In this document: positions 5,666-20,398 of the stretch, piece by piece
Position numbering within the stretch: the first letter of the stretch is position 1
Layout of the letters: the number at the start of each line of letters is the position of its first letter
Virus record (IMG/VR): IMGVR_UViG_3300042332_001503
Coordinates: 1 to 45,890 of that record
Length of the DNA: 45,890 nt
Strand: one strand, 5' to 3'
Origin: a virus
Made by a program: the position numbers and the translations under genes
Notes under the pieces: model-generated
Database searches by the model: none
What the model saw: only the letters and a program-made list of their open reading frames with translations
What the model was told of the DNA's origin: nothing

Positions 5666-6970
5666 TTAGCCTCCGTAGCTATCTCTTATTAGATTTAATT
5701 TTGTATAGTTTGGTCCAGTTGGGCTAATAAAATGGCAAAGATCAAGAATCAAATATTTACCAGATTTCTTTCGGCTAACGGCCTGTGTATATTTAGAAGA
5801 TACCTCTGGAAAAATACAATCAATCACGTCCCCGGCATGTAGTGAAAGATCACAGAAAATGCAAATAGAAAGCTGAATTGTGAATAATTGATTGTACCTC
5901 ATTGTACTTTGATTTAGTATATCTCTCGTCTTAAAATTCTCTTTTTGTGAATTTTCAATTTGATCGGTAGTTGTTACTCCGTATGCAAGATTAAAATCTA
6001 AAGTGGAGAATGTTGTCTTTGTTGATTCATTCAATTCTTCTGGTATTGATGGAGTTCTCTTCGCGGCTCTTACTGCACCAGTGTTTTGTTGTATTGCATC
6101 AATGGTTTCTCTTTTATATTCATGTGTAATTGGATTAAATGTAATACGAGTGGATTTTGTAGTGCCAGCCCGCATTTGTGATATTAAGGACGGCCCTTCG
6201 GGAAATGAATAGGTTAAAATTTTACCGTCGTAACCAATAGGTAGGATAGTTGTGTTATTCATAATATAGCGTTTTACTGAATTTTGATTTAGTAAATTAT
6301 CAATAGATTTGAAGTGGTAGCCTTCAGAGGTTTCATAAAAAAAGAATCCTGCAGTGTAGCCCTCAGTATTTTTAGATGTTACAATAGGAATTGATTTCTT
6401 GGATAAGTTCAATAAAACATTAAATGGCATAGATTCGTTGTCAATTCTGCCATCAATTTTTAGATTATTAAGAGTGTCTTCAATAAATAGGGCTTTTTTA
6501 GTTTTTAGATGTTTGGTTAGAATTTGCCTGACGGTTTCTGATATTTTACCTTCGTAGGTTCTTGATACTCTATTTGTCTCAAAGTTGTTAGTAAGATATT
6601 CTTTACTTGATAGAAATGCAGTAACAATTTCTGCTCTGGTGTTTCCAATTATTTTAGGTCTTACCATAAAGTGAAGACATGTATCATCCGTTGTGAATTG
6701 TATTCTTGCCCTTTCATCATCTACAATATCAAGATAAACCTTTTCGGCATATTGTAAATCTAGATCTCCAGCTTCCGTAGTTGCAACACTTTCTCCTGGA
6801 ACATTTCTATTGCCAGTGTCTGCATATGTGACCTTCACTTTGACTGAATTTTCTAATAGACTCTCATAGTAATATAATTGAGAAAACCCATTAGAAATCT
6901 CAACTATTTTCCCATCATTTGAGATAATTTCAAATCTTTTTATTTGTATATCTGATCTTGGATCGCTCAT
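5666..6970 (-). CDS. Baseplate hub protein, gp27-like
   Basis: A 434-residue protein in the position of T4 gp27 (391 aa), immediately before the gp5-like gene. It begins MSDPRSDIQIKRFEIISNDG and contains the hub-type segments SETVRQILTKHLKTKK, INESMPF-like NESMPFNVLLNLSKKS and FFFYETSEGYHFKSID, which resemble the first tube-like domain of gp27/gpD hub proteins. Its start overlaps the upstream stop as ATGA. Predicted role: trimeric hub ring connecting the spike to the tail tube. The assignment rests on motif resemblance and gene order. Confidence 0.7.
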   Translation of the reverse strand: MSDPRSDIQIKRFEIISNDGKIVEISNGFSQLYYYESLLENSVKVKVTYADTGNRNVPGESVATTEAGDLDLQYAEKVYLDIVDDERARIQFTTDDTCLHFMVRPKIIGNTRAEIVTAFLSSKEYLTNNFETNRVSRTYEGKISETVRQILTKHLKTKKALFIEDTLNNLKIDGRIDNESMPFNVLLNLSKKSIPIVTSKNTEGYTAGFFFYETSEGYHFKSIDNLLNQNSVKRYIMNNTTILPIGYDGKILTYSFPEGPSLISQMRAGTTKSTRITFNPITHEYKRETIDAIQQNTGAVRAAKRTPSIPEELNESTKTTFSTLDFNLAYGVTTTDQIENSQKENFKTRDILNQSTMRYNQLFTIQLSICIFCDLSLHAGDVIDCIFPEVSSKYTQAVSRKKSGKYLILDLCHFISPTGPNYTKLNLIRDSYGG

Positions 6971-9801
6971 ACTATTATTGGTTGTATTAGAATCTGAGTC
7001 TGTTTTTCAATGTCCGAATATACTCCGGTTGCCATATTAGTTATTCGTTGTAGATTTGATAATTGTGGCGATGAAGCTATTTTTAGAGGTTTGGGGATTG
7101 ATGTTATATCCCAGATATTTGCAGACCCTGGAGGTTTAATGAGCTGATTGCCATAATCTGGAAGTGTATTGTTGTTCGGTGGTTTAGTTTTATTTGGATA
7201 AAATGTTGATGTTCTACGAGGATTAACCGGTTTACTTTTATTTTTTATTTTTTGTGGAGGGTTATTGGTCACGGGTAAAGCCCCACTGCCAACATATTCA
7301 AAATGCCAGGGCTCATATGGATTATTTCTAGCCCACATTGGCCATATCCATCCATATCTAACTCCATTTTTTCGAATCCAGGATTGGGCACCGGGAGAAG
7401 AGATGTCTATAGCTTTACCCCAACCGTGAAGAGATGTACCCGGCCTGGCAGCAGTTCCTGGACCGGAAGGTGGATTATCCCAGTATCTTTGTTGAGTTTC
7501 TAATGTCCTATAACCTTCAGATAAGACAAAATTTACACCTTCCTTTGCCGCATCATTTTTCATACGCAAATATGCAATCGCTGCGGGCTTCCACAATTTC
7601 TCCCCGTTGCCGACATCCATTAGATCCGATGCTGGCAATTTTCCATTTTGTCCATTGGGTATTGAATCTGCTTGTGAAACATTTCCCATTACAATCTGTT
7701 GGTTAATCGTAGCTGGTGACAATTTTCCAGCTTTAAATGCTGTTATATTTAAACCGCCGGCCTCAAACCCAAAAACATGACCGAAACGTTGTTGTTCAGT
7801 TGAATCTTCTAAATGATTGTTTGCATTTTCATATGCGACCGAGCGGAAATTGTCTCTTGCTCCGACAAATGTTCTTGCTGAATTTTGTCTAGTTGTATTA
7901 AGAATTGCCGCAGCAACACTCTCCAACGATTCTTGAGTGTGTCCAAATCTTTTTACAAAAGCAAGAGCACTTTCTTTATCTTTGATGGCTCCCCAGGCTC
8001 CGTAGCCGCCATAATCTCGTACCGGTTGAAATTGACCCTTCTCTAAGATAACCTCTCTAATAGATTTTGGCCAACCAGGGAGTGAAACGCGATTATAAAT
8101 TGCCTGGGCAACATCAGCAGATCCCTGGTAACCGCTTTGTGGATTATTGTTTTCGAATAAAGCTGCTGTTACTAATAGCCAAAAATCTGGACTGGAACTT
8201 GAAACATGAAGACCAGCATTTCCTGGCTCTACTGGAGCAGTTTCTTTATCTCCACCTGGAGATTTTAGCATCATCTCTCTACGAATATTCTGAAATATTT
8301 CAGAACTCTTGCTATCCAACATTGCACTAAAAGAATTAACAATTTCTTTGGCAACTGTGACACCAGGAGATCTATTATTTTGAGAAATAGTTCTACTTGC
8401 TGGAACTATACCACCATTCGCCATTGCAAACATTGAATTGCCAATTACTTTTGCATTTGCAACCGTTTGGTCATCGATTGCAGATTGAATTGCATAGCCG
8501 AGATAATTTTCTAAACCCGAAAGAGTGGATTTTTCAATTTTTTGACCTAGAGCCATCATATCAAGCCCAGCCCCCATAAGATTTCCAAAAACACCTGCTT
8601 TTTTCATAATAGCCGAGTTTTTTGTCAATAGGCTAAATGAATTTGCCGTTTTTGTATCTTTGGTGCTGGGAAATATTTTTCTGATTGCCTCTTCGCCGCC
8701 AACATTTTTACCCGGATTTGTTCGCTGTCTTGGTTGTTTGCTCGGCCTTTTCAGCTTTATATTCTTGATGGTTCTCGGTGTTCTACTTGGCGTTTTGTTG
8801 CCAACTCTACCGCCAGAAGCATGTTTTTTGGGTTTACCGAAAGCCGAAAGAGTATCGTAGAGTGCTCCTCCTATAATATCGCCAATAATGCTACCAATTA
8901 TTGGACCAACACCAATTTGTCCTATTACTGGAATTAAGGCACCTAATCCTAGACCAATACCTGAACCAACAGCCTTTGCTGCTGCTCTGCCTACTGGTTC
9001 GCCCATCATCATTGAAAGAGCAAAATCAATTAGACCACCGATAACGGGTATTCTACCAAAAATTCTACCAAACTTGCCCACAAATTTACCGACAGGTTTA
9101 AGATTCTTACCTGAACTACGACTGGGCTTTGTGGTATTGACAGCAGGCGGTGAACCTTTCTTTTGTGCTACCGGACCTACTTGTCTTCCTCCGCTAATGC
9201 CACTGCTTGCAACTGCAAGTCCTAAAACAATAGCACCATTTAAGAATATATTGAGATTCTTCTCTAGACTATCTAAATCTTTTTCGTACTTTTCTCCCGT
9301 AACATTCTTAAGAATGCCACGCATTTTATCGTGAACCTTATATCCAAAATCTATGGCATTAACCACTCCACCTAAAACATTGCTCGCAAATTCTCCTATA
9401 CTCTTACCAAAAGGAACAAGAAGTTTGGCCACATTCAACATTGCGGGCAAACTTTTTAAAAATAGTGGAGCGGCAGCACCAAGAAATGTGTAAAGAATGA
9501 AATTGCGAATTGAATCTAAAAGACCAGTTCTTGGCAATTTATCTTTTATGAAATTTATAGGATTTGCTTTTTGATGTTGAATTAAATTCAGTCTATTGGC
9601 CTTTCTCTGACTCTCTAAATCTTGCTTTCTTTGATTATCTAAAAGTTTTCTCTTCCCCTTCAGTCCTAATATAACATATGCATCAATTTTACGCATAGTA
9701 TTATTGGCATCCTTTAGACCAATAACCAAAGGATCATTTTTACATACGGGATTTATTGTAACTTTTTTGGGAATAAATTGAGACCGGGGAAATGATACCA
9801 T
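6967..9801 (-). CDS. Tape-measure-like tail protein with SleB-type and VanY-type hydrolase domains
   Basis: A 944-residue protein. The N-terminal half has long hydrophobic and Gly/Ala-rich segments (about 95-140 and 190-330) like tape measure proteins. Residues about 539-680 match SleB/cell-wall hydrolase 2 (E550 in LFENNN, then ADVAQAIYNRV, SIREVILEKGQFQPV, FVGARDNF). Residues about 725-836 match VanY/LAS peptidases: SEGYRT, zinc ligands H792 and D799 in SLHGWGKAID, and H833 in EPWHFEY. A Pro/Asn-rich tail follows. This would cut both glycan and peptide parts of the wall during DNA entry. Start and stop overlap neighbours by 1-4 bp. Confidence 0.85.
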   Translation of the reverse strand: MVSFPRSQFIPKKVTINPVCKNDPLVIGLKDANNTMRKIDAYVILGLKGKRKLLDNQRKQDLESQRKANRLNLIQHQKANPINFIKDKLPRTGLLDSIRNFILYTFLGAAAPLFLKSLPAMLNVAKLLVPFGKSIGEFASNVLGGVVNAIDFGYKVHDKMRGILKNVTGEKYEKDLDSLEKNLNIFLNGAIVLGLAVASSGISGGRQVGPVAQKKGSPPAVNTTKPSRSSGKNLKPVGKFVGKFGRIFGRIPVIGGLIDFALSMMMGEPVGRAAAKAVGSGIGLGLGALIPVIGQIGVGPIIGSIIGDIIGGALYDTLSAFGKPKKHASGGRVGNKTPSRTPRTIKNIKLKRPSKQPRQRTNPGKNVGGEEAIRKIFPSTKDTKTANSFSLLTKNSAIMKKAGVFGNLMGAGLDMMALGQKIEKSTLSGLENYLGYAIQSAIDDQTVANAKVIGNSMFAMANGGIVPASRTISQNNRSPGVTVAKEIVNSFSAMLDSKSSEIFQNIRREMMLKSPGGDKETAPVEPGNAGLHVSSSSPDFWLLVTAALFENNNPQSGYQGSADVAQAIYNRVSLPGWPKSIREVILEKGQFQPVRDYGGYGAWGAIKDKESALAFVKRFGHTQESLESVAAAILNTTRQNSARTFVGARDNFRSVAYENANNHLEDSTEQQRFGHVFGFEAGGLNITAFKAGKLSPATINQQIVMGNVSQADSIPNGQNGKLPASDLMDVGNGEKLWKPAAIAYLRMKNDAAKEGVNFVLSEGYRTLETQQRYWDNPPSGPGTAARPGTSLHGWGKAIDISSPGAQSWIRKNGVRYGWIWPMWARNNPYEPWHFEYVGSGALPVTNNPPQKIKNKSKPVNPRRTSTFYPNKTKPPNNNTLPDYGNQLIKPPGSANIWDITSIPKPLKIASSPQLSNLQRITNMATGVYSDIEKQTQILIQPIIV

Positions 9802-11849
9802 TAGGCCACAATACCTCTAACAGCAAGTGTACCCTTTTCGCCATATCTATCGGTATAGTCCGGTATTGCCGAAAAATCTGGAACTTCCGCATGTGCAGCA
9901 GAACCACTTTTTGTTGTAGCAGCTTTTAGATTAATTGCAGGCAGTTCAGTGATAGACACTGCATTCTGTTTTGGTCTAGGTCTAGGTGGTGATAATGTTG
10001 GGGCATTTAATGCAAGTTGTAGACCTTTTGTCGGAACCGAAGATTGTTCATTTCCGGTTGGCGTGTAGAATTGTTCAGGAATAGGGGCCGCAATATTACC
10101 TCTTTCTAGTCTATACTGGCTTTTCTCTGCAGGATAATGTGTGAAGAAATTATCCTGAGCATTTTTTCTAAGAACATCATCATTTTTCATAAATTTCCTT
10201 TGAGACATTCCGAAAAAAGAATGTCTACCTTCAACGTGTTTTTGTGCATTAAGTTGAAGATTACTGTTCCTTAATGCCCTTTCGGTTTCATTTAATAAAT
10301 TATTTGCGGTGGCGAGATCTATTTTTTTAGAATTTGCCAGGGCATTCGCGGCACTCTTTCGGTCAACGATATTCAACCAATCGTTGCGGTTCTTAAAGGT
10401 TGGTTCATATTGATTGCTGCCGGTTATAATATCTTTAATTGTATTTTTACCACCATTTTGCATGAAGTTCATTTTATATGCTGAACCGGCATACAGGCGG
10501 TTATATATTGATTGAGCAACATCTGCTCTACCCTGTGGATCAGAATCTTCCGCAGCGGTTATAGCCAGAAGTGCATTATAATCTGCCTGGCTTATTTTTG
10601 GTAGACTTCTTGGTTCTGTTGCCTTTGCCGGTCTATTTAAGTTGGGGAAACTTATATTTTTCATGCCGTTAATGACATTCATTCCGCCGGCTTTTAGACC
10701 ATTTATCATTCCTCCGACTATGCCACCGTCTTTGGCTAGTTGAATGTTATTAACAAATTTTGGCTGATTGGTAGAACCCGCCATCTTATTAAATCTCAAA
10801 AATGTATCTGCCCCATACTTATCTACAGCGGCCTTTGATATAACAATTTCTCCGGGCTGAGCCGCAATTAGTTGAGTATCGGGGCCAGCACCGGTTATTC
10901 TCATGCCGGTATCTTCGTCAATATGACCACCTTCAGCAAATCCAATTTGACTTATATGCTTTTCTTCTGGTAGCATAAAGTTGATGCCTTTAACCATTCC
11001 ACCATTAAAAAATCCTGGAGTTGATCCAGAATGTGGAGCAGGTGTGCTTATCTTTTCATTTGTCTTAGGCTTGAGAAGTTCATAAGTAAGTACCCCAGCT
11101 CCAGCAACTGCTCCTGCGATTAGACCGGTCTTTCCGAGCTTTTTTGCCTGAGCCAATATACCTGGAATACCCAATTTCTTTAGAAATAAAACAGTAGATG
11201 CAATAGCCTTAACCGTAGATCTAATAGCAAGACCAAACTTTGTCCCAAACAGAACAAATGCCCCCAATATTGCCGGCCACCAATCTTTTAAAAATCTTGT
11301 TAAAGACCTGATCTTATTTTTATTAGCAGGATCTGCAAACCATTTTAAGATATTTGTTAAGGCTTTGCCTAATAGAGTAAAAAGAATGAATTTAAGGATG
11401 GTATCTAGAATATTCTTAATTGGTGCAAAAACAGCAGAAAATGCCCTGGACATTTTTCTACCACTAGACTCAAGAAGATTCTCTCTTTCTCTTCGTTCGG
11501 TTTCCTCTTGATTTTTTCTTACATCTTCAACCTTCTTTTTATCCAATAAATGCTCAGCCTTAAGGGCATCTAAGATTTTATTGGCCGAGTTATTGATAAT
11601 ATTGAGCATTCCCAACATATCATCACAACAGTTGCAGCAATTATTGTTATTTACATTTCTGTTTGGTAGAAGTGTATTTTTATTGATTTTTATTTGCTGT
11701 GGTGCCTTGGAGGGAGAGGGCGGGGGTTGAGGCGCTGGCGGTTTATCCTTTTCTTCTTGTCTAATTTTAAACAATAGCTCTTCAATCAAATCGCCCGTCA
11801 TAGTCGGGCTAGATTTTTTATTTGGTTTGTTTGAAGAATTTGGGGCCAT
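9801..11849 (-). CDS. Tape-measure-like tail protein with SleB-type hydrolase domain
   Basis: A 682-residue protein. It starts with a low-complexity Pro/Lys/Asn-rich region including a CCNCC cluster, then a charged coiled-coil (about 105-150), membrane-like helices (about 160-270), and the motif GPDTQLIAAQPGEIVISKAA common in phage tape measure and virion proteins. Residues about 415-560 resemble the SleB-type fold of the next gene (LAITAAEDSD, then ADVAQSIYNRL). The tail C-terminus is Pro-rich. It directly follows a chaperone-like ORF, the usual place of a tape measure gene. Whether this or the following gene is the true tape measure is not decided. Confidence 0.75.
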   Translation of the reverse strand: MAPNSSNKPNKKSSPTMTGDLIEELLFKIRQEEKDKPPAPQPPPSPSKAPQQIKINKNTLLPNRNVNNNNCCNCCDDMLGMLNIINNSANKILDALKAEHLLDKKKVEDVRKNQEETERRERENLLESSGRKMSRAFSAVFAPIKNILDTILKFILFTLLGKALTNILKWFADPANKNKIRSLTRFLKDWWPAILGAFVLFGTKFGLAIRSTVKAIASTVLFLKKLGIPGILAQAKKLGKTGLIAGAVAGAGVLTYELLKPKTNEKISTPAPHSGSTPGFFNGGMVKGINFMLPEEKHISQIGFAEGGHIDEDTGMRITGAGPDTQLIAAQPGEIVISKAAVDKYGADTFLRFNKMAGSTNQPKFVNNIQLAKDGGIVGGMINGLKAGGMNVINGMKNISFPNLNRPAKATEPRSLPKISQADYNALLAITAAEDSDPQGRADVAQSIYNRLYAGSAYKMNFMQNGGKNTIKDIITGSNQYEPTFKNRNDWLNIVDRKSAANALANSKKIDLATANNLLNETERALRNSNLQLNAQKHVEGRHSFFGMSQRKFMKNDDVLRKNAQDNFFTHYPAEKSQYRLERGNIAAPIPEQFYTPTGNEQSSVPTKGLQLALNAPTLSPPRPRPKQNAVSITELPAINLKAATTKSGSAAHAEVPDFSAIPDYTDRYGEKGTLAVRGIVA

Positions 11850-11854
11850 TGTTG

Positions 11855-12025
11855 TTACTTCTGTTTAGCTTTTTCTTCTTCCTCTTCAATGTGTTGTTGA
11901 AGTAAAGTTACATAGATTTCTCTTTCAAATGGAATCATATTTTCAACAAAGTCCGGAGGCCATTTTTGAAACTGAATAAGAGCAAACATTAGGCGATAAT
12001 AATTTTCTAAATCATTATACCTCAT
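11855..12025 (-). CDS. Small chaperone-like protein; possible -1 frameshift extension of gp26
   Basis: A 56-residue protein starting MRYNDLENYYRLMFALIQ and ending in an acidic-basic tail (EEEEEKAKQK). The core QKWPPDFVENMIPFEREI resembles the short second part of tail assembly chaperones (W-x-P-x-x-V then a helix). Its ATG at 12025 overlaps the gp26 stop as ATGA, and it ends 5 bp before the tape-measure-like gene. A T-run at 12034-12040 at the end of gp26 would place a -1 shifted ribosome in this frame (TAC GTC ACA ATG AGG). Confidence 0.75.
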   Translation of the reverse strand: MRYNDLENYYRLMFALIQFQKWPPDFVENMIPFEREIYVTLLQQHIEEEEEKAKQK

Positions 12026-12744
12026 TGTGACGTAAAAAAAGCAGTTAGCCCCTCAAGCACAATTGTCTCTGTCACATTAGTTACGGGATTTGTTACCTTA
12101 ACTTCATGCCTTAATTTTGGCATGGTTTCAAAAAAACTTTGAATCTTATTAAATTCTGTGCTGGTCAATTCATCAAAGAAAGTATTCCACTCCTCTTTAC
12201 TATAATCTGAGAAAACATAAACTTCATCTTCCACACACAGCTTATCAACACAATCAATAATCATATCGTAGGTCTGACTAGACGAAATCTTCTCAAGGTC
12301 AAAATTGTTCTTGATGAATTGATCCAGCGACGGGTACTTCATTTCGAGGACAAATTTATCTCCGATTTTAATATTCTTAGTATGATTAGGATCTTTTTGA
12401 ACCTTAACTTCATCTAGATCAATTTGAATCTTAACTTCTGTCACTCCATCATCCGGACAGTAGACAGTAAGTTCAATTGTCTCTCCTACGGATTTCTTTC
12501 GGATATTCAAGAACAAAAATTCAATATCAAACGTGGGCAAAGTTTCAACCTTAATACCTTTCGTTAGAACGCAATTTGAAATAATTGTTCTAATTGCATT
12601 TGTGATTTCAATATTGCTCTCAGATTCAAGTGCCAACAGCAGTAACTTTTCTTCCTTTACTAAAAATGGCCTAAACTTAATAGGCTTTTCGGTGGAAGGA
12701 AGAATCAATTCATAAGTTGGAACAGTTAAAGAAGGTAATGGCAT
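12022..12744 (-). CDS. 26: Baseplate hub assembly protein, gp26-like
   Basis: A 240-residue protein with the pattern of the T4 baseplate assembly family (gp26/gp51 type): MPLPSLTVPTYELILPST, then IKFRPFLVKEEKLLLLAL, FDIEFLFLNIRKKSVGE and LPxFD-type segments, and a C-terminal EGLTAFFTSQ. In T4-like phages these proteins help assemble the hub and act like tail chaperones. A heptamer of seven T (minus strand, 12040 to 12034) covers the codons GCT TTT TTT near the stop. A late promoter-like ACTAAATA lies 26 bp upstream of the ATG. Confidence 0.8.
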   Translation of the reverse strand: MPLPSLTVPTYELILPSTEKPIKFRPFLVKEEKLLLLALESESNIEITNAIRTIISNCVLTKGIKVETLPTFDIEFLFLNIRKKSVGETIELTVYCPDDGVTEVKIQIDLDEVKVQKDPNHTKNIKIGDKFVLEMKYPSLDQFIKNNFDLEKISSSQTYDMIIDCVDKLCVEDEVYVFSDYSKEEWNTFFDELTSTEFNKIQSFFETMPKLRHEVKVTNPVTNVTETIVLEGLTAFFTSQ

Positions 12745-19584: not shown

Positions 19585-19633
19585 TTTGGAAGCTTTTTGA
19601 AATCAAAGGTTTGCCAACCAGGAATATTTAGAA
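19585..19633 (-). repeat. 49-bp direct repeat, copy B
   Basis: Second copy of the 18902-18950 sequence with one mismatch. Its left end on the minus strand includes the last codon and the stop of the methyltransferase gene (TTC TAA). Confidence 0.9.
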
Positions 19634-20398
19634 TAGAGTGTCTAGGGCATTTGGAGCTGGAGTTTTGTTTATTCTCTCGGAACCAATTTTGAAATAATCT
19701 CCGTTAAGTTCCATACCGATATATCCTCTCCCCGTCTTCTTTGCAGCTACACCCGTTGTTCCACTTCCAAATACATTATCTAGAACCACATCACCCTCAT
19801 TGGTATATGTCTTAATAAGGTATTCCATAAGAGCTAAAGGTTTTTGTGTTGGGTGTAGACCTTTTTCCTGTCTGAATTTTATAACAGTTTTTGGATACCT
19901 AGAACCTTCTGGATTATCACGATGCTCGGATTTCAGATCGCCATAGACTTCGCCCAGTTTTTTCTTGGTTGACTTAAATCCACCATAAGGAGTAGAAATA
20001 GTCATTTGGGGATTGTATGTTGGGCTCTTTCTATAAAAGACCACTATATTCTCGTGAGACTTAAGAGGCTGATATTTGGCTACCATTGGATTTGTTCCTT
20101 GGGGTTTTTCCCATATCCATTCATATCTAAAATTTTTAAGATTGGATGATATAAGAGTCGTAGTAAAAGGTTGAGATGCAGTGAAAACCATTGCTGCATT
20201 TTCTCTTGCAATTCTATTATACTGGTTCCACAAAGGCTCAAAGGGAATAAGAATATCAAACTTTGCGGCTGTTATTTCATATGGTAGATCTGCCAGAATC
20301 ATATCAACCGAATTGTCGGGAATACTCGGCATAATCTCTAGGCAATCTCCTTGATATAAATCAATCAATTGAAATAACCTCCGGGGTGATATTGGCAT
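19628..20398 (-). CDS. DNA methyltransferase, N6-adenine/N4-cytosine type
   Basis: 256 residues of the N6_N4_Mtase fold. Motif IV is present as a DPPY variant, ADLPYEITAAKFD (about residues 35-47), before motif I VLDNVFGSGTTGVAAKKTG (about 205-223), giving the beta-type order. HPTQKPLALMEYLI and GYIGMELNGDYF are further conserved blocks. ATG 20398 overlaps the upstream gene by 38 bp; a TTG inside QLIDLYQGDC is an alternative start. It lies between gp59 and gp32, next to a possible nuclease gene. It may protect phage DNA or complete a restriction-modification pair. Confidence 0.88.
   Translation of the reverse strand: MPISPRRLFQLIDLYQGDCLEIMPSIPDNSVDMILADLPYEITAAKFDILIPFEPLWNQYNRIARENAAMVFTASQPFTTTLISSNLKNFRYEWIWEKPQGTNPMVAKYQPLKSHENIVVFYRKSPTYNPQMTISTPYGGFKSTKKKLGEVYGDLKSEHRDNPEGSRYPKTVIKFRQEKGLHPTQKPLALMEYLIKTYTNEGDVVLDNVFGSGTTGVAAKKTGRGYIGMELNGDYFKIGSERINKTPAPNALDTLF

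Follow-up and report, generated by a model that had tools for sequence, protein, structure and literature searches.

The window analysed here is the whole stretch of DNA of one IMG/VR virus record (45,890 bases), in which a gp26 homologue and the 56-aa ORF that follows it are both encoded on the minus strand. The features considered below are listed here, TAC standing for tail assembly chaperone.

12022..12744, minus strand: gp26 homologue of 240 aa, proposed TAC-N (PF12322, PHROG 150, AlphaFold2 model)
12049..12054, minus strand: internal GAGGGG resembling a Shine-Dalgarno motif, 8 nt 5' of the heptamer (duplex energy, codon bias in relatives)
12034..12040, minus strand: slippery heptamer U UUU UUU in -1 phase (bases read directly, T6N kept in relatives)
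12022..12025, minus strand: ATGA, the gp26 stop over a -1-frame ATG, possible re-initiation site (bases read directly)
11991..12022, minus strand: weak hairpin, unsupported candidate (MFE -9.8 kcal/mol, z -0.39 vs shuffles)
11855..12040, minus strand: -1 frame from the heptamer, FFYVTMRYND...KQK, 61 codons then stop (translation, AlphaFold2 model)
11855..12025, minus strand: 56-aa ORF, gp51-like C-terminal domain, proposed TAC-C (PHROG 634, homology to T4 gp51 and CP220)
9801..11849, minus strand: tape-measure-like gene of 682 aa (PHROG 35029, E 8e-47)

The final codons of gp26 are GCT TTT TTT ACG TCA CAA TGA, and the run of T has the X_XXY_YYZ phase (U_UUU_UUU at 12040-12034(-)). Downstream, the gp26 TGA (12024-12022) overlaps the ATG (12025-12023) of the 56-aa ORF. 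The initial annotation had reported the bases at the gp26 end and their coordinates exactly, with the strand (minus) left out. It had also traced the -1 frame into a 56-residue ORF ending just before a tape-measure-like gene, and this reading holds: the -1 frame gives FF-YVT-MRYNDLENYY... and is stop-free until 11855, and the ATG of the 682-aa ORF (11849) lies 5 nt past the end of the 56-aa ORF (11855). The predicted shift product has about 296 aa, made of gp26 residues 1-237 plus 59 residues. The best family of the 682-aa ORF, PHROG 35029, is a family of unknown function; this ORF may encode the tape measure, to judge from its position and hydrophobic segments only.

Family searches identify both halves of the locus. 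The gp26 protein matches Pfam PF12322 (T4_baseplate) over residues 9-237 of 240 (E 4.9e-66, 223 bits for a cut-off of 24.5) and PHROG 150, baseplate hub (E 3.2e-73), while the 56-aa ORF hits the 'baseplate hub assembly catalyst' family PHROG 634 at E 7.7e-21. In profile searches of ten proteins, whose E-values are valid for that small set, the -1-frame product matches residues 200-245 of T4 gp51 (E 6e-8) and the C-terminus of the baseplate protein of Campylobacter phage CP220; the gp26 profile matches T4 gp26 and, weakly, T4 gp51 and CP220. The record of phage KVP40 itself remarks a likeness to the last 40 residues of T4 gp51. Thus, the 56-aa ORF is the gp51 C-terminal domain, and its earlier description as 'tail-chaperone-like' was right. 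AlphaFold2 models, for which the alignment was made solely from this phage and the fetched related loci, have a pLDDT of 85 for gp26 and of 83 for the -1-frame product, which is helical. The gp26 model matches gp26-family models in BFVD as well as gp51 of Acinetobacter phage ZZ1 (E 1.9e-5). Foldseek searches of the PDB returned no significant match, the HK97 TAC 2ob9 appearing at E 1.1-2.8 and TM 0.2-0.4 for gp26. Likewise, the gp26 and gp51-domain profiles found nothing significant among PDB sequences, and a search of NCBIfam gave no match.

In T4 gp51 and in CP220, the same C-terminal domain sits on a gp26-like N-domain, joined in frame within one gene, so that no frameshift is needed. T4 has, besides gp51, a separate gp26. 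It therefore appears that T4 has one gene for each of the two forms, short and long, whereas this phage and most of its relatives would obtain the long form by frameshifting. No second T4_baseplate paralogue resembling T4 gp51 was found in the present record, which is probably a fragment.

Conservation of the T run was studied in related loci from IMG/VR, CP220 loci and 17 regions of annotated phage records other than T4; removal of near-duplicate proteins left 192 dereplicated gp26 homologues. An in-phase T6N heptamer is found near the gp26 3' end in 191 of the 192, a count that takes no account of shared ancestry and comes from a sample leaning to marine relatives of the query. The initial annotation had proposed looking for the heptamer in gp26 genes of other cyanophages, and the signal proves to be real and very widely conserved. 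T6C is the most frequent type (153 sequences), followed by T7 (20), T6A (16) and T6G (2); the run reaches T8 in some relatives. In every one of the 191, the -1 frame is open into the gp51 domain without a premature stop. The set takes in Aeh1, KVP40, Sinorhizobium phages phiN3 and phiM9, Stenotrophomonas phage BUCT608, pelagiphage Mosig and Methylophilales phage Melnitz-3. The one homologue of the 192 in which the heptamer is absent belongs to the distant Vibrio phage D509 (L097 1351-2091), where the -1-frame ORF is present and preceded by a TAATG overlap; this phage may have switched to restart. Five loci (L087, L185, L211, L230 and L245) have 31 nt from the heptamer to the gp26 stop, where 7-16 is usual, so that the gp26 and gp51 frames overlap more extensively.

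Codon choice within the same genes is the stronger part of the evidence. The codon preceding the heptamer ends in T in 191/191 sequences, against a background of 28-79% for the residues used, and all 191 have TTT as the first Phe codon, against a background of 70%. Elsewhere in these genes, a Phe-Phe pair is written TTT TTC in just 9 of 202 cases. Moreover, in T6A and T6G relatives the second codon specifies Leu (TTA, TTG) and not Phe, and the run is still kept.

Upstream of the heptamer, GAGGGG is predicted to pair with CCUCCU at about -5.8 kcal/mol. Across the relatives, sequences resembling a Shine-Dalgarno (SD) motif peak 8-10 nt 5' of the heptamer. At this site, a conserved Glu-Gly is encoded with GAG in 120/168 cases (30% elsewhere) and with GGA or GGG in 121/168 (40% elsewhere). 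From this bias, the SD sequence appears to be selected beyond the amino acids that it encodes. A comparable arrangement is known from E. coli dnaX, where a stimulating SD precedes the shift site by 10 nt (PMC5009743). The dnaX signal also has a downstream hairpin, a feature shared by a cyanophage subset of the relatives; however, its heptamer is A AAA AAG, whereas the present phage has a U-run without a convincing hairpin.

In that subset, 60 cyanophage-type sequences carry a 5-bp palindromic stem with an AUAU-type loop, starting about 10 nt past the heptamer. The stem covaries, with both-side changes in 31 cells as compared to 9.5 in shuffled alignments (0/500 shuffles equal this value) and lower values in slid controls. 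It is of the GGTCC-ATAT-GGACC type (alignment columns 18-31, e.g., L002:1669-1682) and overlaps an ATG. This stem may stimulate frameshifting, lock the start codon or, as a palindrome in a coding region also could, serve as a DNA site, so that its role can only be inferred. The covarying hairpin is absent downstream of this phage's heptamer, where the local fold (11991..12022) is no better than that of shuffled sequence. The cyanophage stem was also considered as a universal element and rejected, its pairs forming in just ~61-66% of the wider set.

Taken at the level of sequence, gp26 and the 56-codon ORF are very probably the two halves of one tail assembly chaperone gene of a marine phage of the T4-like kind, expressed as TAC-N and TAC-NC through -1 programmed frameshifting. 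We infer that the shift occurs, that its rate is such that most ribosomes would end at the gp26 stop and yield the 240-aa short form (TAC-N), and that the products act as chaperones. A minority of ribosomes, held by the internal SD sequence 8 nt upstream, would slip by -1 on U UUU UUU and read into the gp51 domain, giving the ~296-aa long form (TAC-NC). On the model of lambda gpG and gpGT, it can be proposed that many short forms and few long forms coat the presumed tape measure protein of the next gene and that the C-domain recruits tail-tube subunits. In lambda, a -1 slip close to the end of a short gene, just upstream of the tape measure gene, gives a short and a long form, as is proposed here. 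Searches with gp26 gave no significant match to lambda-type TACs in either sequence or fold (HK97 2ob9, E 1.1), and gp26 is about 240 aa long, as compared to 104-107 aa for the HK97 chains.

Two other accounts of the T run have to be weighed against ribosomal frameshifting. The run could merely reflect a conserved C-terminal Phe-Phe of gp26 and have no recoding role. The pair is indeed a strongly conserved feature of the C-terminus, T4 gp26 itself ending in ..KEFFELL. Nevertheless, the invariant TTT and T-ending codons, the rarity of TTT TTC at other Phe-Phe pairs and the retention of the run in relatives that encode Leu at the second position rule out a protein-level cause of the run, and this account deserves practically no credence. 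Transcriptional slippage on the T7 run, producing a message in the -1 frame, is hardly more credible. Such homopolymer runs, A7 and U7 among those mentioned, can cause it (PMC4066793), and some relatives have T8, but most relatives (153/191, T6C) have six T only, and the X_XXY_YYZ phase together with the SD spacing suits ribosomal slippage.

A different question is whether the 56-aa ORF is translated by restart, ribosomes stopping at the gp26 TGA and re-initiating at the overlapping ATG. In its exclusive form, with translational coupling giving a free 56-aa protein and no fusion, this scheme is very improbable. The ATGA overlap of this phage and of L001 is compatible with it, as is the annotation of gp51 as a separate gene in many phages. 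However, among the 191 heptamer-bearing homologues, ATGA is found in 2, TAATG or TGATG in 10 and no overlap in 179, and the ATGA is confined to this phage and L001, a 95%-identical relative, both of which also have the heptamer. The initial annotation had held that frameshifting would be refuted if the overlap were kept in relatives and the T-run lost; the opposite is seen, the heptamer being kept where the overlap is not, which argues for frameshifting. In addition, in 53 of 188 relatives the stretch from the heptamer to the gp51 core contains no ATG, GTG or TTG, and in 19 more GTG or TTG is the sole start before the core, both counts being approximate since the core was delimited with a simple motif. 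Where an ATG does precede the core in relatives, it mostly lacks an SD sequence, and none was found before this phage's own ATG (12025-12023). The in-frame fusion of the domain in T4 and CP220 also speaks against a free protein as the sole product. As a start codon is lacking in many relatives and the overlap is rare, the fusion emerges as the general route.

This raises the question of whether both modes operate here, the frameshift fusion being accompanied by some free gp51 domain made by re-initiation, as the initial annotation had suggested. Such a combination would refine the frameshift reading and is not exclusive of it. The heptamer and the ATGA are intact, and both are common to L001; re-initiation is therefore possible in these two phages. 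On the other hand, the ATG has no SD sequence, the ATGA occurs in no relative beyond this pair, and a free TAC-C has no known use, so that we regard the combination as unlikely, although clearly less so than coupling alone. Restart at the ATGA is thus at most an addition within a small lineage (this phage and L001). Since the hairpin of the cyanophage relatives is missing, U7 replaces U6C and an ATGA restart is available, it can also be imagined that this lineage follows a mixed strategy, with the short chaperone, the fusion and a free C-domain all made from one locus. We consider this rather improbable; if true, it would represent an intermediate between frameshifted and separately encoded TACs. 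The U7 heptamer and the ATGA overlap are minor local variations.

The preferred reading, -1 frameshifting from gp26 into the gp51 domain, joins a case that is already known. The abstract of Vladimirov et al. reportedly names T4 genes 26 and 51, and frameshifting is said there to be conserved in several T4-like groups. The gene families are the same here, gp26 corresponding to TAC-N and the gp51 domain to TAC-C; this phage has U7 and ATGA in place of the common U6C. According to two articles citing it (PMC12846349 and PMC10885494), that study (Vladimirov, Gautam and Davidson 2022, Virology 566:9-15) established which genes of T4-like phages encode TACs. In these articles, TAC-N genes of T4-like phages are said to have known polyT -1 signals (PMC12846349), and some T4-like phages are said to have, in place of frameshifting, two genes, one short and one long and fused (PMC10885494). 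The initial annotation had proposed the G/GT-type logic of lambda-type phages at a T4-like gp26 locus; the logic is supported by the conservation of the heptamer, but, going by the same articles, it is not new for T4-like phages. The finding is thus right and not new in kind, and the gain is one of extension and detail, a large set of environmental phages being added to a known case of translational recoding. With its conserved internal SD sequence and its covarying hairpin, the signal lends itself to direct reporter assays. Similar locus features, namely a conserved -1 frame and a GTTTTT motif ending TAC-N, are described for Pseudomonas phage Adele of the Vandenendeviridae (PMC12846349); Adele belongs to a different phage family, and the likeness concerns these locus features.

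The result also bears on public records, in which annotated cyanophage gp51 is often short or absent. For gp51 of P-HM2 (L085 2699-2881), the annotated ORF has 30 aa, and in several cyanophage records, e.g., L098 (ACG-2014h), no CDS is given there, apparently because the frame lacks a start codon of its own.

Elsewhere in the window, the 682-aa gene (9801-11849) and the adjoining tape-measure-like gene (6967-9801), both on the minus strand, are paralogues, matching each other in the N-terminal region at E 6e-7 and over a Hydrolase_2-like segment at E 2e-7; the second gene also has a VanY domain. At 19628-20398 (minus strand), a DNA methyltransferase match spans just positions 124-354 of the 743 in the PHROG 67 profile, and this gene is possibly short or broken.
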